Source: Hyphomicrobiales bacterium (GTDB taxonomy: Bacteria; Pseudomonadota; Alphaproteobacteria; Rhizobiales; Rhizobiaceae). Taken from it: a stretch of 64,000 nucleotides of DNA. Position 1 is the first letter of the stretch; every line of letters begins with the position of its first letter. Below the pieces are notes generated by a model. That model did no database searches and was not told where the DNA came from. It worked only from the letters and a program-made list of their open reading frames with translations. A program made the translations under genes and the position numbers. This document shows positions 27,384-60,810 of this stretch, one piece after another. The stretch spans positions 39,995 to 103,994 of the forward strand of contig UCNG01000023.1 of assembly GCA_900473915.1 (NCBI GenBank), given 5' to 3'.

Positions 27384-27416
27384 TCAAAGGGCTGGGGCTC
27401 TTTGTTCTGAACAATG

Positions 27417-27450
27417 AAAAAGGCCGATGGTGGGAACCATCGGCCTTTTT
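27417..27450 (+). terminator. terminator after gyrA
   Basis: AAAAAGGCCGATGGT (27417-27431) pairs with ACCATCGGCCTTTTT (27436-27450), loop GGGA. It is symmetric and could also end transcription of the small minus-strand gene at 27538-27687. Confidence 0.95.
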
Positions 27451-27537
27451 CAGATGCCAAGACTGGAGGAATTGGCGATCACACAAACTTTTTTCCAGCA
27501 AGCTCCAACGCTGTTACGTGAACTCGACTGTGAATAC

Positions 27538-29597: not shown

Positions 29598-29770
29598 GAA
29601 ATCAGTCCAGTGGACTGATTTCCCCGCGTAGGCGCTTCGCACTTTTGCTGGAAATGCTTTGGAGCGGTTCCGGTTAAAACGGAATCGCGGGAACCGCTCT
29701 AACTATCTGTTTTGTCGCATTATCCTACGCAAAACCGCTTCGCACTTTTGCTGGAAATGCTCTTGAGGTT
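29598..29770. repeat. composite Bru-RS-like repeat before queA
   Basis: It contains a perfect palindrome, GAAATCAGTCC-AGT-GGACTGATTTC (29598-29622). A 26-base direct repeat beginning CGCTTCGCACTTTTGCTGG occurs at 29633 and again at 29736. An inverted pair GAGCGGTTCC/GGAACCGCTC lies at 29662 and 29690. The same modules recur at 60711-60810. The repeat fills the gap between ppiB and queA and supplies the queA leader. Confidence 0.8.
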
Positions 29771-41513: not shown

Positions 41514-42659
41514 ATGCAGAATACACCGCTTGACGGTCTCAAGGTGGTAGAACTGGCGCGCATTCTTGCCGGGCCATGGGTAGGGCAGACGCTGTCCGAT
41601 CTTGGAGCTGACGTTATCAAGGTGGAGAGCCCCGAAGGCGACGATACGCGTAAATGGGGCCCGCCATTCATCGACGTGGAAGGCGAACGGTCAGCCGCTT
41701 ATTTCCACGCCTGCAATCGCGGCAAGCGCTCGATTACAGCGGATTTTCGCACCGACGAGGGCAGGGAACTGGTGCGCCAGCTTGTCGCTGATGCCGATGT
41801 CGTCATCGAAAACTTCAAGCTGGGCGGGCTCGACAAATACGGCCTCGATTACGAGAGCCTGAAGGCCATCAATCCACGCTTGATCTATTGCTCGATCACC
41901 GGTTTCGGCCATACCGGCCCCTACGCCGAGCGCGCAGGCTATGATTTCATGATCCAAGGCATGGGCGGAATCATGGATCTCACCGGCGATCCTGAAGGCG
42001 AGCCCCAGAAGATCGGCGTGGCCTTCGCCGACATTTTTACCGGGCTTTATAGCGTGATTGCGATCCAGTCGGCGCTCATCATGCGCGAGCGTACCGGCAC
42101 CGGCCAGCATATCGATATGGCGCTGTTCGACTGCATGTCGGCGGTACTTGCCAATCAGGCTATGAACTATCTGGCGTCGGGCGTTTCGCCAAAGCGCATG
42201 GGCAATGCGCATCCGAATATCGCGCCCTATCAGACGCTGCCGGTTTCCGACGGCTATTTCATCATCGCTTGCGGCAATGACGGACAGTTCGGGAAACTGA
42301 CTTCATTGCTTGGCGTCGGCGATCTTGCGGCCGACGAGCGTTTCGCCAGCAATTCGGCACGCGTCGCCAACCGCGCGGCACTGACGGCACTTCTGGAAGA
42401 AAAGACCAAGACATGGAAGCGTGACGATCTGTTGGCTGAACTTGCCAAAATCGGGGTGCCTGCCGGCCCGATCAACACAGTGGCCGATGTATTCGCTGAC
42501 CCGCAGTTTGAGGCGAGGGCGATGAAGATCGACCCGCAAGGGGTTCCAGGCTTGCGGACGCCTATTCGCTTCTCGGATGCCGAATTGAAGCTCGACAAGC
42601 GTTCGCCAAAGCTTGGAGAACACAGCGATGCGATCCTTTCGGAAATCGGCAAAGGCTGA
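41514..42659 (+). CDS. gcdG: CaiB/BaiF CoA-transferase, probable glutarate CoA-transferase
   Basis: 381 residues of class III CoA-transferase. Start motif LDGLKVVELARILAGPWVGQ; RGKRSITADF; the catalytic Asp is expected within the GYDFMIQGMGGIMDLTGDPEG region. Its position after gcdH matches gcdG (succinyl-CoA:glutarate CoA-transferase), which would supply glutaryl-CoA. The substrate is inferred from the neighbourhood. Confidence 0.86.
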   Translation: MQNTPLDGLKVVELARILAGPWVGQTLSDLGADVIKVESPEGDDTRKWGPPFIDVEGERSAAYFHACNRGKRSITADFRTDEGRELVRQLVADADVVIENFKLGGLDKYGLDYESLKAINPRLIYCSITGFGHTGPYAERAGYDFMIQGMGGIMDLTGDPEGEPQKIGVAFADIFTGLYSVIAIQSALIMRERTGTGQHIDMALFDCMSAVLANQAMNYLASGVSPKRMGNAHPNIAPYQTLPVSDGYFIIACGNDGQFGKLTSLLGVGDLAADERFASNSARVANRAALTALLEEKTKTWKRDDLLAELAKIGVPAGPINTVADVFADPQFEARAMKIDPQGVPGLRTPIRFSDAELKLDKRSPKLGEHSDAILSEIGKG

Positions 42660-43046
42660 TTGAACGGTTAGCCGCTCTATCGACGCGCCCTTCCTCGAGA
42701 GAAGATGGTGCGGTCGAGAGGACTTCCAACAGGCGTAAAAGAACAACAGGTAGTATTATCTTGCCGGCGTGACCGATGTCACCGCGCGCATATCTCAGAG
42801 CCAACAGAACCAACAACTTCAAATCCACGTTAGCGGTAATCTCTACCTGACGGCCTTGCCGGGAGCTTCTTGCGACGCATTATAACACGACGCGCAAGAG
42901 GCTCCTTCCAATGGCAAATATTTGTCACGGACGGATATTCATCAGAAGTTATTTTAAGCACCCGAGGCGCACAGTCTGCAAAGCTATCTCGAAGCGGGTG
43001 CACTACCCTGAAGACGAGCGATGAAGAGCTCGGCGATCGACTATCC
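42660..43046. other. gene-free junction: chromosome to first island
   Basis: The stretch after gcdG (42660-42704) is chromosomal and short. The 15-base copy of the tRNA-Leu 3' end then begins, and from there the composition changes (less GC, no clear codon pattern). A plus-strand frame at 42870-43115 runs over the end of the next gene and has no family pattern or ribosome site; I do not count it as a gene. Confidence 0.6.
42705..42724. repeat. att-like copy of the tRNA-Leu 3' end (outermost)
   Basis: ATGGTGCGGTCGAGA is identical over 15 bases to 48839-48853, then GGACTTCC against AGACTCGAACTTCC, that is, one substitution and a short gap. Degenerate compared with the 45119 copy, as expected for the older junction. 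Confidence 0.75.
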
Positions 43047-44705
43047 CTACTGTTTGAATTGATCCTCAAGCTGATAGATGAAAGGCGGGGAACGTGCCAA
43101 ATCCACATTGATTAAGGGTAAGAATCTGCCCGTGTGTTGGAAGTAGTCGGCTTGCACGAAACTCCCGCCAATCAGTTCACCGCTGGTGTAGAAGATTGCT
43201 TCGAGCGGCAATTTCTCAGGGATATCCGGGGGCCAGACATCTATAACTGCTTCGTTCCATTCTTCCGGCTGGTGGCCTGCGGGCCTCGGGAAAGTTAAGC
43301 TCAGACGAGCGTCGATACTGAACTGAAAATCTTGTTGGTTAATGCCTTGCCCGGTCTTGTCAAACTCATCCTTTGTTACGCCCATAAAGCACTGCCCCGG
43401 CCAACTCGTGATGACATAGTTTTGCGACCAAATCGGCACTGTGGTGACGCCTATCTTCCGGCACGGCCCGCTCATATCTGGAGTATTTAGTGCCGATGGC
43501 CCACACTTTTCGACGCGTCCCCAGGTATCACCGTCCGTCGGATACACACACAAAACAGTCAGCGGATAGGCGGCTGGCGCGTTCGACTCCTTAACGATTA
43601 TACCCACACCTCTTGACCAACCCAACTGCGTTTTCAAATCAGAGCGGACGTACGAGAACGACACCCCTTTCGATGCGACTGAGTTTGGGCTCGGGTTCCA
43701 CGAACGGAAATCCGATCCGTAGCTGGTAACCCGAATCAAAACGCCATTGCACCAAAAGTCCGCCTTTCCGTTTGAACAAGGTTCGGAATCGAAGAATCTG
43801 GAATTGATCCTCTTCACTACTTGGTTGCCATAGTCCATTTGGTCGGTTTCATCGAAACCGAAAGGCAATCCGTTACCAGGTTGGAACCGCAAAATTGGCA
43901 ACCATTTGGCGGTCTCTTTGAAGTATGCTCGCTGTTTGCGCTGCACGTCGACTAATTGATTTCCAGAGGATACGTTGTAGAATAGAGCCTCGATCGGTAT
44001 CTTCGAAGGCATGGTGGGATTCCACGCGGCTACCCAAAGTTGCAAATTTCCCACCTTTTCCTGAGCCTGCAGTTGATTATGCGCTAGCATACTTTGAATG
44101 AATGGAGCTGTCGCCTCGGCAGAAAATGAGCACTGCGTGTTAGGGTTTTCTGCAGAGGCTAGATAAGCCGAAATCCATTGATCGGCTGTTGTAATTCCAA
44201 CGGCAGTACAAGATGAATCATCACCTGGATCGTGAGGGGGTAATGCTTGTCGGGTTAAGTTGCAGCCATGATCGCTGTCATTAGCCCGTGGCGAGGCCGC
44301 CAACGGATAGATACAGCGAACCGAGTAAGGGAGATCGTCTCCGACGGCCGTGGGCAAATCAGCAAGCACCATGCCGACGCGCGCACTAAACCCGCTAGTT
44401 TGTACGTCCTCCCGCAGATAGGTGAATCCTACAGACTGTAGTTCAGTATCAGTTGGGGTGAGCTTCCAGAACTGATCCTCGCTGGCGGTGAGATCCCGTA
44501 CCAAAAGACCGGAGCAGTACCATGCGGGCTTTTCCATACCGCATGATAGCGTTAGGAGTTGGTATCGGCGATTCAGCAGTGTGGCTATGTCGCTTCCAGA
44601 CAGCGCCAGTGCTGGCACCGTCCACGTGACGGCAATCGCGACAAGAATCCACCGCAACGAATCTCGTCGATCCCATTTAATCAACCTAAGTTCGTGTCCC
44701 ATCAA
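43047..44705 (-). CDS. secreted protein of two tandem repeats, halovibrin-like
   Basis: 552 residues with a signal segment (about 17-36, ILVAIAVTWTVPALALS), so exported. Two repeats of about 230 residues follow. Compare LNRRYQLLTLSCGMEKPAWY with INSRFFDSEPCSNGKADFWC; both continue CSGLLVR/CNGVLIR, VGFTYLRED/VSFSYVRSD, VRCIYPLA/VLCVYPTD and IPIEALFYN/LPLEAIFYT. Cysteines recur at matching places, suggesting disulfides. From memory this resembles Pseudomonas proteins annotated as halovibrin HvnA/HvnC, but no catalytic residues are identified and I would not assign an activity. Only gene of the first island. Confidence 0.7.
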   Translation of the reverse strand: MMGHELRLIKWDRRDSLRWILVAIAVTWTVPALALSGSDIATLLNRRYQLLTLSCGMEKPAWYCSGLLVRDLTASEDQFWKLTPTDTELQSVGFTYLREDVQTSGFSARVGMVLADLPTAVGDDLPYSVRCIYPLAASPRANDSDHGCNLTRQALPPHDPGDDSSCTAVGITTADQWISAYLASAENPNTQCSFSAEATAPFIQSMLAHNQLQAQEKVGNLQLWVAAWNPTMPSKIPIEALFYNVSSGNQLVDVQRKQRAYFKETAKWLPILRFQPGNGLPFGFDETDQMDYGNQVVKRINSRFFDSEPCSNGKADFWCNGVLIRVTSYGSDFRSWNPSPNSVASKGVSFSYVRSDLKTQLGWSRGVGIIVKESNAPAAYPLTVLCVYPTDGDTWGRVEKCGPSALNTPDMSGPCRKIGVTTVPIWSQNYVITSWPGQCFMGVTKDEFDKTGQGINQQDFQFSIDARLSLTFPRPAGHQPEEWNEAVIDVWPPDIPEKLPLEAIFYTSGELIGGSFVQADYFQHTGRFLPLINVDLARSPPFIYQLEDQFKQ

Positions 44706-45118
44706 ATCACCTTTGTTGTTAGGGATTTGGGGAAATCACATCACGAACGTTCGATAGAGTCGCCGGTATAACTTGACAGGAGACGAATGGATAATCGAGG
44801 GTGCCGTGTGGAAACGCTTGTTGCAAAACTCCAAGGTTCCACAACGCTGGTTGGCCGTCTCTAAACGAAAAGAAGGTGTCTCATTGGTTCTTTAAAAAAT
44901 TCAAACCGCTCACGTACCGGCTACTGCAATCTATGCGACGCGGATGTTCTTTTACCGGATATCATGTTCAGCATCTATGAAACCCTGGGTAGAGCTAGAT
45001 TGAATTAAATTAGCTGTTCGCGTATTCCGTCATTGGATCAGAAATGCCGCATATCAAAAAAAATATGGCAAAAAATTGCTGATGTCTTGGTTAAAAGGCA
45101 ATTTAAAGTATCTGATAT

Positions 45119-45136
45119 ATGGTGCGGTCGAGAAGA
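45119..45136. repeat. att-like copy of the tRNA-Leu 3' end (internal)
   Basis: ATGGTGCGGTCGAGAAGA, identical over 18 bases to 48839-48856 in the same orientation. It marks the border between the two cargo segments. Confidence 0.85.
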
Positions 45137-45176
45137 TCTTTAAACACCTTAAAAACCCCGTAAAATAAGGGATTAG

Positions 45177-45240
45177 GTGTCCCACGGAAACGGAAATCGG
45201 CGCATTAAATAACAATAGGTTAGCATATGGGTGTCCCACG
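45177..45240. repeat. GTGTCCCACG repeats, left end of second island
   Basis: GTGTCCCACG occurs at 45177-45186 and 45231-45240, 54 bases apart, just inside the att-like site. A third identical copy lies at 48776-48785, just inside the other end. Candidate integrase arm-type sites. Confidence 0.55.
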
Positions 45241-45453
45241 GTTTCAATGAGCTCAGATTAGCGGCGCGAGCATTTTCTCCGCTACATAAGTAGCGACTTG
45301 AGCTCTTATATTTTCAGGGACAAATCGGTTTTTACGGCCTTTCAGTCATTACCGGCGCACCCAATAAATTCAAAATTAGTCGTTCAGAAGCGAGTGTAGT
45401 TCATTATACCCATTTGACGAATCGTGAAGATCAACGCGGTTGTTATAAGTCGG

Positions 45454-46743
45454 TCAAATTCCAAGTTTTGTGCCGAAGCTCGCTTTCTTAAGACTGTCGA
45501 TGAAGTCTGAATGTTTGACAGTAAGGTCAGCACGACGCAAAAGAATCCGAGTTATCGTCCAAGCAATATAGTGAACGTTGTTGACCTCAATCTGGGCTAC
45601 GCCTCGCTCTCCACTGTGAACAATGCGCGACCGGAGATCATAATGCTTCTTGAGGCTTGTATATAATGCCAGCCTTGTATCGGGCTTCTCGCTCCATATC
45701 ACTCCTGCATATCGTGAAATTGTTTCCGTGACAGGACCATCTTTACTCCCCGAAAGTAGCGCTTCAATCGTGGTGAAAAAGAAGAGCACTCGCTCCGCAG
45801 GTTCTTGGGCACGGCGTGCTCGGGTCAGCCATCCCAACGCCTGTTGCATACGTTCTGCTAGCGTGTTGCGCTCGGGATTGAACACCTGCTCCGCAACCTT
45901 AATCACACTCGAGCTATTGAGAACATCGATGATATCGGCATCAAGTTCGTACCAAGGCGCAGCCGAGCTCCCACCGAAGGCTGGACCATCAGGGCCAATA
46001 CGCAAGCCTTGGGATTGGGCGGACTGTGGGGAAATGGGATGCGGTTCGATATCTGCTAGTTTGGGGAATAACCCCTTCGGCTCGTTGTAATGCAGGCGAA
46101 CGAAACTAATCGCCACATCGATGAACCAGAGAGCCTGTAGCTCCAGTCCTTTCGGCATCCCCTGTACCGACACATCCCAGCAAAGAGCCGGAAGATGGAT
46201 ATGCGTTTCGAAAGAACTTCCCTCACTTATGATGGTGAAGGCGTTCTTTTCTTGAGCAGGCGGAGAAATTCGGAGAACTGATGATAGACTTTCTACCTCT
46301 TGTCGAATTGATTCACGCGTGGTTATCCGAACAGGCCCAACCCTCACCTCATCTAAATTACCTATGAAACGAAAAAGCGGGTTCGGACGAATTATGCGAT
46401 ACCGTGTCGTCGCCGCGTCACTGATACCAACTGCTATCGCTTTAGCTATATCTTTTACGCTATCGGTTCCACTGCTGCTGAATGCGAGACTGCGGGCGAC
46501 TTCTTCGACTGATTTCTGATGAATGCGGCTTGTGCCGAAGATTTTTACCGCTCGGGCCGACAAATTTCGCGAAGCATCGATGAGTTCCTCGGTGAACTCC
46601 ACAGTGCCGTGCGCACCGCTGCTAAACCCTTTGCTTGAATCCTTCAGAAGCGCATGAAACACTTCTTCGCTCTCAACGAGCGCAGCCTGAAACGCCTTGA
46701 CAAACACTTCTGCGAGTTGGACCAACTGATGATCATTAGCCAT
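45454..46743 (-). CDS. HEPN-domain (ApeA-like) protein, candidate defence RNase
   Basis: 429 residues. The N-terminal 280 residues are unrecognised. The C-terminal part (about 290-420) is helical and matches the ApeA-like HEPN pattern: AERVLFFFTTIEALLSG, then HYDLRSRIVHSGERG, where Arg371-x4-His376 is the R-x4-6-H motif of metal-independent HEPN RNases. HEPN proteins with this motif act in abortive infection, toxin-antitoxin and CRISPR-linked defence. Second gene of a two-gene operon, 91 bases after its partner. No strong ribosome site is seen before the ATG; base use is poorer in GC than the flanks. Confidence 0.8.
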   Translation of the reverse strand: MANDHQLVQLAEVFVKAFQAALVESEEVFHALLKDSSKGFSSGAHGTVEFTEELIDASRNLSARAVKIFGTSRIHQKSVEEVARSLAFSSSGTDSVKDIAKAIAVGISDAATTRYRIIRPNPLFRFIGNLDEVRVGPVRITTRESIRQEVESLSSVLRISPPAQEKNAFTIISEGSSFETHIHLPALCWDVSVQGMPKGLELQALWFIDVAISFVRLHYNEPKGLFPKLADIEPHPISPQSAQSQGLRIGPDGPAFGGSSAAPWYELDADIIDVLNSSSVIKVAEQVFNPERNTLAERMQQALGWLTRARRAQEPAERVLFFFTTIEALLSGSKDGPVTETISRYAGVIWSEKPDTRLALYTSLKKHYDLRSRIVHSGERGVAQIEVNNVHYIAWTITRILLRRADLTVKHSDFIDSLKKASFGTKLGI

Positions 46744-46834
46744 ACGGTTTTAGCTCAGTTTATGGTTTTACTAGGACTGATAACGATCACTATCCTAGTC
46801 TCCGTACGATGTCTTGAGGCATACGTTACCCACA

Positions 46835-48487
46835 TCACGCTTTATGTGCGAACAAGAGACCCATCGGCGATTTCTTGAGTTCCTTATGCGCGTTTTTGAT
46901 ATCCATGAAGCGCTCTGGTATCTCTCTTAATTTCGGCACATCCAAAATCTGATTTGCAACGAACGCCGCAGCGCCAAAAAACGGCGTTCCGGTGGCAATT
47001 GCTGCTATTTCCACGGCGCCGACGGAAATCCAAGATCCGAGGTCATACCCGGCGAACTTGAGACCCTTGTTCCGCAACTCCTTCACGTCCTTCTGGTGCC
47101 GCTCAAAAGCATCCTGAATGTTCTCGACGATCTTGTCACTCGACCTGAAAAACGCCTCGGGTTTGGTCTCGGCGATCTCGCTGACGCCGGCTGAAAGCAC
47201 TTCGCGGATTTCATGGAATGCCCCCTGCTGCCGTATCTCAATTAGGGCGGCGGGCGGGATGTTCCCTAGCCACTCCATATCTGTCTCTGCGACTCGCTGC
47301 AGGCCCTTAACCATATGTAGATGGGTGTTGTCGAACGTAATCGAGGAATTGTATTCGAGTTTCCAGTTGAAGTATCGCCAGGACGTCGGTGCATCGAGCA
47401 ACGGCGTTCCGCCCAGATATCGACTCTTCAGTAGCAAGTCCGTGGCCTGCATCATGCGTCCGACCGCTTGAGCGGCCAGTAAATGGCCAGGACCCGACCC
47501 CTCAGGTAAAAGATGGCCATCGCGCTCGAGGGAGCGGGACATCTGCTCCTCGATGCTTCCGGTCCAATCGGTATCAAAAAGAACGCGATCCCGGTCAGCG
47601 ATCTCTGCAGCAGCCTTCTCGGGAGTGTCTAGGGCATTGCAGAATTCAAAGAGATCTTCGGTTCCAGAAAATTTGCGGCCAAACAGTTTCTCGGCGTGAG
47701 CGACACCGTCTCGCTCGGAGACGTCGCGGAGGAACTCGATTTCGGATTCGTCTAAGGATGATCGAAACGGCGTCACGACCACCATCGGCACGTCGAGCTT
47801 TGCTGTCGCCAGGTCGCGGTATCCCATAAGATTGATCGCATGCTTCGCGAGATAATAGAGCTGAACATCGGGGGGTGAGCGCTCGAAGAGATGCCTAGAG
47901 TGCCAGAACGGATCCGACAGGACTATGGTGTCGATGTAGAGGCCAGTGCTGCTCGCGATGTTCCGCTTATAGGAAGGGAATAAGTCTCCGCCGTAGATCG
48001 CCTTCGTCGATCGCATATCCTGAATGTGGTAGTGTGACGGGTCTGCAGCAACTCCCCAGAAATCCTCCAGAGCCTCCAGAAACTTTGGTATCTGCGGGCT
48101 GTATTCATCGACGTTTAGCGGATGACTGGAAATCATATTGCCGAATTGGTGAGCGTCGGCTCCCGCCTCTTTGGCCGCTTTCACGAAAAAGCCAAGATTT
48201 CTCTCAATAAATTCGAAATAGGAGTTCGTGATAATCTCGAGAGACATCGCGTCTTTCGTGACCTTACGGTTGTGAATCGCCGCCACGGCAAGTGCCATCG
48301 AACGCACCCGACCGTCGACAGTGGTCAGATCGATCTTCCCGTCCGCGCCTGTCCGCACCGCCAACAGACTTTGTTCAAGCCCTTCCGCCACCTTCTTGGC
48401 GAGGACGATCTTGCCCTCAGCGAACTTCGTCCGCAGCACCTCGAGGCGCCACCGCAATTCCTCGTCTTTTTCCTCTTGGTCCACCAA
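46835..48487 (-). CDS. 550-residue protein of unknown function, partner of the HEPN gene
   Basis: I do not recognise a family. Residues 1-60 look like a charged helical start (EEKDEELRWRLEVLRTKFAEG). The middle is soluble, with LYIDTIVLSDPF near 185. Near residues 490-525 a hydrophobic stretch (SVGAVEIAAIATGTPFFGAA, continuing AFVAN) could insert in a membrane, and the C terminus is basic. The start is TTG 48487 or GTG 48484 with GGGG upstream. It precedes the HEPN gene on the same strand in the same island, so the pair probably forms one functional unit, for example sensor or inhibitor plus RNase. Confidence 0.75.
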   Translation of the reverse strand: MVDQEEKDEELRWRLEVLRTKFAEGKIVLAKKVAEGLEQSLLAVRTGADGKIDLTTVDGRVRSMALAVAAIHNRKVTKDAMSLEIITNSYFEFIERNLGFFVKAAKEAGADAHQFGNMISSHPLNVDEYSPQIPKFLEALEDFWGVAADPSHYHIQDMRSTKAIYGGDLFPSYKRNIASSTGLYIDTIVLSDPFWHSRHLFERSPPDVQLYYLAKHAINLMGYRDLATAKLDVPMVVVTPFRSSLDESEIEFLRDVSERDGVAHAEKLFGRKFSGTEDLFEFCNALDTPEKAAAEIADRDRVLFDTDWTGSIEEQMSRSLERDGHLLPEGSGPGHLLAAQAVGRMMQATDLLLKSRYLGGTPLLDAPTSWRYFNWKLEYNSSITFDNTHLHMVKGLQRVAETDMEWLGNIPPAALIEIRQQGAFHEIREVLSAGVSEIAETKPEAFFRSSDKIVENIQDAFERHQKDVKELRNKGLKFAGYDLGSWISVGAVEIAAIATGTPFFGAAAFVANQILDVPKLREIPERFMDIKNAHKELKKSPMGLLFAHKA

Positions 48488-48838
48488 TTTTCCCCGCCTG
48501 ACCGTTGGCTTATTGTCTGAACTTGGACTGGCGCATTGGCATTTGCAAGAAGTGGGCAGCGCTCGCGAGCCTAACCGCGGATAAATATGGGTTGAAAAAC
48601 AGGACTGAGAGTATCCGAAGTTAGTATTGGCCGAAGCAGGAATTCAACCCATTAGCGTGTTATTTCGCTTTGCGGACCTTGCAACTAGCGCTGGGGCTAT
48701 CGGTCGCGAGCCTTCCACTTCAATTGTTTTACTTCTGTCATATGTCTGTGATTTTACGAGGTCCGAATCGATAAAGTGTCCCACGACCAAAACTGTCACG
48801 GCATAAGTATTTGTAAAATATAACCTTTTTGATAGAAA
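48488..48838. other. gene-free right end of second island
   Basis: 351 bases between the start of the two-gene operon and the tRNA-Leu 3' end. Presumably holds the operon promoter on the minus strand. The third GTGTCCCACG (48776-48785) lies here. No gene or integrase remnant is visible. Confidence 0.6.
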
Positions 48839-48839
48839 A

Positions 48840-48924
48840 TGGTGCGGTCGAGAAGACTCGAACTTCCACGGGTTGCCCCACAGCGACCTCAACGCTGCGC
48901 GTCTACCAATTCCGCCACGACCGC
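48840..48924 (-). tRNA. tRNA-Leu (anticodon GAG)
   Basis: 85-base class II tRNA with encoded CCA. The acceptor stem GCGGTCG pairs with CGACCGC. The D-arm carries TGGCGGAATTGGTAGACGC. The anticodon stem CAGCG/CGCTG encloses loop TTGAGGT, giving GAG, which reads CUC and CUU. A variable arm and T-arm (GTTCGAGTC) complete it. The last 17 bases are copied at 45120 and partly at 42706, so the gene is an integration target that regenerates intact. Confidence 0.96.
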
Positions 48925-60681: not shown

Positions 60682-60709
60682 ATGAACGAGCAAAAGCCTG
60701 CTAGCACTT

Positions 60710-60810
60710 AGAGCGGTTCCTATTTTCACTGAATCACCGGAACCGCTCTAACTATTTGTTTTGTCGCATTTTCAAAGCAAAACCGTTTCTCACTTTTGCT
60801 GGAAATGCTC
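60710..60810. repeat. Bru-RS-like repeat (second full copy)
   Basis: GAGCGGTTCC (60711-60720) and GGAACCGCTC (60739-60748), then AACTATTTGTTTTGTCGCAT and a CACTTTTGCTGGAAATGCTC end. The same order is seen at 29662-29761. A diverged copy is at 63870-63900. Confidence 0.8.

Follow-up and report, generated by a model that had tools for sequence, protein, structure and literature searches.

Two neighbouring and very probably independent genes on an island at tRNA-Leu(gag): a solitary candidate anti-phage family distantly related to DitB and a predicted HEPN ribonuclease

Genes at the locus

Two adjacent genes of a Hyphomicrobiales bacterium (contig UCNG01000023.1) were analysed within a window of 64,000 nucleotides, the whole stretch of DNA considered here. 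They encode proteins of 550 and 429 amino acids (aa), are situated next to a tRNA-Leu(gag) gene, and had been read in a first-pass annotation as a two-gene defence system. Both minus-strand reading frames and the 91 bp between them were confirmed. Taken singly, either gene could plausibly act in defence. The features of the two genes are as follows.

46835..48487, minus strand: 550-aa protein, solitary candidate defence gene and distant DitB relative (open reading frame (ORF), TTG start)
47255..48025, minus strand: central alpha/beta domain, codons 155-411, with a predicted class I aminoacyl-tRNA synthetase (aaRS)/cyclodipeptide synthase (CDPS)-like (HUP-type) fold (alignment, model and fold comparisons)
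46946..47038, minus strand: Ala/Gly-rich, charge-poor C-terminal segment, codons 484-514, possibly membrane-inserting (model and hydropathy)
45454..46743, minus strand: 429-aa protein with a C-terminal HEPN-like motif, predicted stand-alone ribonuclease (RNase) (ORF, relatives and alignment)
45616..45633, minus strand: R-x4-H motif, codons R371-S-R-I-V-H376 (alignment of seven sequences)

Occurrence of the two families

The occurrence of the two families was compared by a profile search of 60 loci, 52 with a gene of the 550-aa protein's family (hereafter the 550 family) and eight with a relative of the HEPN-like protein. A HEPN-like relative was found at none of the 52 loci and a 550-family gene at none of the eight. 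Each profile recovered its own family, most loci (L049 being an exception) having also been used to build the profiles. Flank lengths vary within the set, which includes some duplicates: L048 repeats L014, L045 repeats L008, L011 has near-copies in L004 and L005, and L043, L056 and L058 seem to be near-copies of each other. The HEPN-like gene was likewise found in none of 32 whole genomes having a 550-family relative, a run that held no positive genome; the same 429-aa query did give matches in a run of 394 Rhizobiaceae genomes. There, three genomes carried the HEPN-like gene and two the 550 family, and the two sets were disjoint.

The strongest single result against pairing came from a plasmid of Sinorhizobium meliloti, which matches the window at 90% DNA identity over 46829-48620 (1.8 kb), i.e. 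from 6 bp beyond the stop codon of the 550-aa gene to about 130 bp upstream of its start. Since the match ends there, the unit that was moved consisted of the 550-aa gene and its upstream region without the HEPN gene. A survey of homologous gene pairs had been set beforehand as the refuting test of the two-gene proposal, and no co-occurrence was found outside the window. A two-gene system was therefore rejected on the co-occurrence counts and the S. meliloti transfer unit, and the proposed division of labour, with the 550-aa protein sensing infection or restraining the RNase, is left without support. The 550-aa and 429-aa genes are very probably independent.

Distribution and neighbourhood of the 550 family

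Relatives of the 550-aa protein were found in five plasmid records, on 12 viral contigs and at 32 loci of a one-genome-per-species collection, and the family is present in 17 of 5426 complete Escherichia coli genomes. In each of 19 E. coli records, among the matches listed, a portal gene lies under the end of the match (one record was inspected directly), and the E. coli copy has the replication endonuclease/DinI side on one flank and the portal on the other. A homologue of the P2 portal gene was located within about 120 bp of the 550-family gene and convergent to it in eight of 48 loci (the 52 loci less L004, L005, L047 and L048), three of the eight looking like near-identical copies. Thus the copies in E. 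coli and other hosts occupy the same place beside the portal gene as the genes of the gpA-gpQ hotspot of P2-like phages. This region has been published as a defence hotspot in a study that lists 169 systems; among the cloned genes and small systems, old-tin and three others conferred phage protection, and eight further systems had been cloned (PMC9122126). A further 550-family copy was found on a viral contig, at its end; the phage structural genes of this contig appear Mu-like by eye. A pentapeptide-repeat-like protein, also recognised by eye (L010:2030-3517), sits between a 550-family relative and phage structural genes.

Among the 76 immediate neighbours of 39 loci (the 52 loci less viral loci L050-L060 and L047 and L048), no constant neighbour of the family was found. 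Recurrence was limited to P2 portal and DinI-like genes from P2-like phages and to two genes that two Psychrobacter have in common. When 122 proteins flanking the 32 genome loci were compared with PADLOC models (E<=1e-6), Thoeris ThsA and ThsB, RT-TIR, RT-Toprim, AbiLi, Mokosh MkoA and a type IIG enzyme were matched by one protein each; these counts are per protein rather than per locus, come without a control set, and stem from a table of 25 of the 128 families. A link to MADS, whose mad3 and mad8 models each matched four of the 122 neighbours, was dropped because the mad3 model is unspecific, matching all 32 genomes many times each and also all 14 control genomes. Three genes upstream of the Photobacterium 550-family relative, past a transposase, a DUF4238 protein is encoded (L002:473-2791); a single DUF4238 protein has been described as a validated defence gene (PMC9122126).

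Taken together, the 550 family is probably a widespread, single-gene candidate anti-phage family. No description of it was found in the literature searched, although supplements or subscription journals may hold one. A gene for prophage or plasmid maintenance or for lysogeny (partition, exclusion of related phages, or regulation) is an improbable alternative to defence. Such a role would suit the location of the family in P2-like and, by eye, Mu-like phages as well as on plasmids, and partition and toxin genes also occur in the P2 hotspot (PMC9122126, section 10). However, the family is also found on bacterial contigs with defence genes among the neighbours, and DitB, to which it is related, is a defence protein model.

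Relationship to DitB and Avs1c

In searches with the PADLOC model for DitB (PDLC03827), E-values were 3.1e-5 for the window protein, 3e-13 for the relative at L010, 5.3e-10 for the E. coli copy and 5.4e-4 for L003; the relative at L002 gave no match. Overall, 16 of 31 family members matched at E<=0.01 (best 3e-13). The window protein is aligned with profile positions 163-291 of 361, and across the members parts of positions 91-343 are covered. In four of five members tested singly the match lies mid-protein, within residues 188-451. The model has no curated cut-off and the match is distant and partial, so that the 550 family is best described, at the level of sequence, as distantly related to DitB. 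The N-terminal helical part and the C-terminal Ala/Gly-rich part of the 550-aa protein, both outside the match, distinguish it from DitB.

DitA and DitB reportedly form the two-gene Aditi system, as described by Millman et al. in 2022. A review places Aditi among the systems of unknown mechanism (PMC12926258). In contrast to Aditi, the 550 family has no constant second gene, and at E<=1 none of the PADLOC models picks up the adjacent 429-aa protein. Among 647 genomes searched with the DitB model (97, 149, 247 and 154), no other DitB locus was found, the sole match being the 550-family member of genome G026. In the literature searched, no mention was found of DitA/DitB under the name of the Aditi pair, nor of two RefSeq accessions.

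Residues 7-78 of the 550-aa protein resemble Avs1c, a small protein of AVAST type 1. The corresponding PADLOC model (PDLC02160) matched 17 of the 31 members at E<=0.01 (best 1.1e-6), and L002, which is outside these 31, matched at 1.7e-6. With the NCBIfam model for Avs1c (NF041811) the score was 18 bits, far below the curated cut-off of 70, and the protein is not assigned to that family. Pfam yielded no usable match for the 550-aa protein at E<=1.

Conservation and predicted fold of the 550-aa protein

The alignment of the family comprises 31 sequences; L015, L041 and L042 (broken reading frame), L001-L005, L011 and viral loci L050-L060 were left out. It contains 38 invariant columns, 30 of which fall within residues 154-411. 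Four of the 31 rows had been started at the match and do not have the first 20 columns, hence fewer invariant columns are counted at the N-terminus. Invariant residues of the central domain include G167-D168-L169-F170-P171 and T368-S369-W370; D168 was present in all 31 sequences.

A late hydrophobic segment had been noted before. It is present at residues 484-514, but it is weak and Ala/Gly-rich, with a best 19-residue hydropathy of 1.54 in the window protein. Region 476-523 of the predicted model has a pLDDT (predicted local distance difference test) under 50. That this C-terminal segment acts on membranes is less likely than not.

The nearest solved folds of the predicted domain 155-411 are those of CDPS and class I (tyrosyl) aaRS of the HUP superfamily, below significance. 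In a Foldseek search with the domain alone, CDPS chains from eight PDB entries occupied the first 13 rows, likewise below significance. A viral structure library contained no match to the predicted model at E<=0.001, and PDB sequence searches gave nothing useful. Profile comparison of the 550 family with CDPS, tyrosyl-tRNA synthetase (TyrRS) and TrpRS gave probabilities of 0.1-0.4% versus 0.1-0.3% for controls; it was uninformative because the CDPS profile consisted of two poorly aligned rows and the method also missed the relationship of CDPS with TyrRS. A HUP-like central domain is the somewhat favoured assignment.

The catalytic features of these enzymes were looked for in the family. No HIGH motif of class I aaRS was seen by eye in residues 162-181 of the 31 sequences, and no match to PF00579 was obtained (E<=1). 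The CDPS family PF16715 was not matched at E<=1 either. When the window segment IYGGDLFPSYK was set by eye against LIGVSPFNGYF of one CDPS, the G-G-D-L-F-P segment had no serine at the catalytic-serine position and carried the invariant Asp there; the 550 family thus differs from CDPS in this residue as well as in having no sequence similarity to it.

An enzyme acting on aminoacyl-tRNA, i.e. a CDPS-like transferase with Asp in place of the catalytic serine that alters charged tRNAs during infection, is accordingly an alternative of low probability. It is favoured by the CDPS chains at the top of the domain-alone list, by the lead of TyrRS, CDPS and PanC in the VIA lists, by the invariance of D168 and by the likeness of the two segments; against it stand fold scores that are all below threshold, the missing profile similarity and a residue mapping made by eye, and the loss of the serine may mean that no CDPS chemistry takes place. 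In the literature searched, nothing was found that joins cyclodipeptide synthases with anti-phage defence. More generally, action of the 550 family on tRNA or aminoacyl-tRNA is rather unlikely. The same holds, perhaps slightly more so, for the most specific version, a solitary anti-phage enzyme built on a CDPS/TyrRS-type HUP domain that would recognise or modify aminoacyl-tRNA via the invariant GDLFP...N..S..G.Y.D site and stop the cell, possibly through the C-terminal membrane-active segment.

The 429-aa HEPN-like protein

The R-x4-H motif noted previously in the 429-aa protein turned out to be conserved: R371, S372, H376, G378 and R380 are invariant in seven of seven sequences, the other six being 19-31% identical to the window protein. 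HEPN proteins are characterised by R-x4-6-H with a polar residue following the arginine (PMC3710099), and this arrangement is found here, with S372 after R371. For many HEPN families a second acidic element, typically E-x3-[KR], is given as frequent rather than defining (PMC3710099). E327 is invariant in the seven sequences but is followed at position +4 by S, T or V.

Relatives were found in nine plasmid records (three of them matching over 17-27% of the query length only), in three of the 394 Rhizobiaceae genomes and on one viral contig; none was detected among phage records. All nine plasmid relatives are named 'HEPN domain-containing protein' by NCBI. No HEPN model was matched in Pfam, either by the window protein at E<=1 or by the seven members at 0.5, and a PDB sequence search returned no chain supporting HEPN. 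Like ApeA-type proteins (HEPN_Apea, PF18739), the 429-aa protein is one large protein with a C-terminal R-x4-H motif. Membership of HEPN_Apea was nevertheless rejected, as PF18739 was not matched at these thresholds and hhalign gave a probability of 0.05% against two of its members. A toxin-antitoxin pair of the MNT-HEPN type was rejected as well, given the adjacent 550-aa protein without a Pfam match (E<=1) and the lack of constant pairing.

Judged by its motif, the 429-aa protein is probably a stand-alone HEPN RNase. That it is no RNase, the motif having arisen by chance or being inactive in an unrelated family, is improbable. The missing HEPN model match and the lack of similarity to the two HEPN_Apea proteins would fit with this explanation; R371, S372 and H376 are, however, invariant in all seven divergent sequences, and the NCBI naming of the nine plasmid relatives also argues against it, though three of these are the short matches.

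Four plasmid loci were inspected. Two of them have integrases and GIY-YIG genes in the vicinity of the relative, one together with VapBC and the other with a TIR gene; at the remaining two, the relative is surrounded by plasmid genes. Upstream of the 429-aa relatives at L006:3858-5468 and L007:2848-4479, and on the same strand, there is a gene of the GIY-YIG nuclease family, in one case with a TIR gene between; it is a possible neighbour of this family. The relative at L046:574-1974 shares the C-terminal R-x4-H region, whereas conservation of its N-terminal part is poor (overall identity 19%), a hint that the N-terminus may be the variable, sensing part of the family.

The island at tRNA-Leu(gag)

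Both genes are carried by an island delimited by copies of the 3' end of tRNA-Leu(gag), and a further gene is located next to them.

48840..48924, minus strand: tRNA-Leu(gag), integration site, with its 3' end as att core (tRNA annotation)
48840..48856, plus strand: att repeat 1, 17 bp within the tRNA 3' end (repeat search)
45120..45136, plus strand: att repeat 2, identical to repeat 1; left boundary of the cassette with both genes (repeat search)
42706..42722, plus strand: att repeat 3, with a single mismatch; outer left boundary of the island as a whole (repeat search; runs on into the empty site in a relative)
43047..44705, minus strand: halovibrin-like protein of 552 aa, carried as cargo by the neighbouring tandem cassette (ORF and relatives)

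The att core TGGTGCGGTCGAGAAGA corresponds to the 17-bp 3' end of the tRNA and is present exactly at 48840 and 45120 and with one mismatch at 42706 (chance expectation 0.01). The att-like site reported near the two genes is therefore real. The description as a small tRNA island holds with respect to size and tRNA linkage, but the extent had been underestimated, because the third att copy adds a second cassette. Two tandem cassettes are present, 42706-45120 with the 552-aa gene as main gene and 45120-48840 with the 550-aa and 429-aa genes. Their G+C contents (0.501 and 0.511, respectively) are lower than those of the flanking DNA (0.580 on the left side, 0.556 on the right).

Among the best matches, three Rhizobiaceae genomes (G048, G221 and G151) share the flanks. 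G048 represents the empty site, with the counterpart of window position 42659 and 42694-42724 followed directly by the tRNA side, and in G221 the two flanks are about 460 bp apart. In G151 the same site is occupied by a different element (L067:529-10200), about 9.6 kb long and flanked by exact att copies on both sides. It encodes proteins named by eye as a tyrosine integrase (544 residues), a type IIG-like methyltransferase (958 residues), a SEC-C protein and a protein resembling resolvases. As another element is present there, the tRNA-Leu site seems to be a hotspot for integration, which in a relative holds cargo of the defence type. With the G151 integrase as query, no integrase remnant was found in the island (best E-value 4.2 in the island and 0.029 in the window), and the cassettes were therefore probably moved or left behind by other elements. 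The three att copies in a row are suggestive of two cassettes that accreted successively at one tRNA gene, with an integrase detected in neither.

Relatives of the 552-aa protein are plasmid proteins annotated as halovibrin HvnA/HvnB, DUF2599 or hypothetical (26-31% identity among the matches listed). By eye, the protein has a signal-like N-terminus and two similar halves; it was not counted in one system with the 550-aa and 429-aa proteins. Short repeats of about 70-100 bp at 27411-27480, 29662-29767 and 60709-60810 align with a relative at several positions and in either orientation, and look like a dispersed Rhizobiaceae repeat.

Overall interpretation

Our preferred reading, to which we assign a probability of roughly 0.6, is that the island grew through successive integration events at the tRNA-Leu(gag) 3' end and that the two genes of its second cassette stand alone and are independent, being neighbours by chance, with the 550 family as an anti-phage candidate. 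For the 550-aa protein we infer defence, a ligand and an effector step. In a site formed by the invariant polar residues beside the beta strands, the helical N-terminus and the HUP-type central domain would bind a ligand that changes on infection; the likeliest candidates are the tRNA acceptor end, an aminoacyl-tRNA and a nucleotide. Upon activation the ligand would be modified, or the Ala/Gly-rich C-terminal segment released into the membrane, and the infected cell stopped. The 429-aa protein would be a separate HEPN-type RNase with the trigger in its own N-terminal domain.

Several results weigh against this reading. Housekeeping genes are also found by Pfam among the proteins flanking the 32 loci, and ten hand-picked neighbour proteins gave no PADLOC match. 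All fold scores are below threshold, including those of the VIA lists in which TyrRS, CDPS and PanC took 49 of 50 rows in one case and the first 32 rows in the other. Across the 31 members, the best 19-residue hydropathy of the C-terminal segment is 0.88-1.91, which is modest for a transmembrane helix, and in ten of the 31 the most hydrophobic stretch lies elsewhere in the protein.

That the two genes nevertheless form one system here, with the 550-aa protein as sensor or restraint of the HEPN RNase, is very improbable: they are on the same strand in close proximity, both families are accessory genes, and co-transcription is possible because no minus-strand promoter-like match lies between them (none was found for either gene), but the families were never found together at other loci or in the 32 genomes, the S. 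meliloti unit contains the 550 gene alone, and the G+C contents differ (0.546 and 0.506).

Significance

The initial observation of the locus was thus right and its two-gene reading very probably not, adjacency on a small tRNA island being weak evidence for a two-gene system; the interest now rests on the 550 family, which is solitary, related to DitB, located in the P2 hotspot and predicted to contain a HUP domain. The E. coli members, among them the P2-prophage homologue WP_148119620, make this family directly testable in laboratory strains. If it is indeed an anti-phage enzyme with a HUP domain, DitB would share this unrecognised domain, which would help to explain Aditi, and a single gene of 1.65 kb would bear on the roles of unnamed genes in the gpA-gpQ hotspot of P2, on the action of DitB, and on the recruitment of a tRNA-synthetase-like or CDPS-like domain to phage defence.

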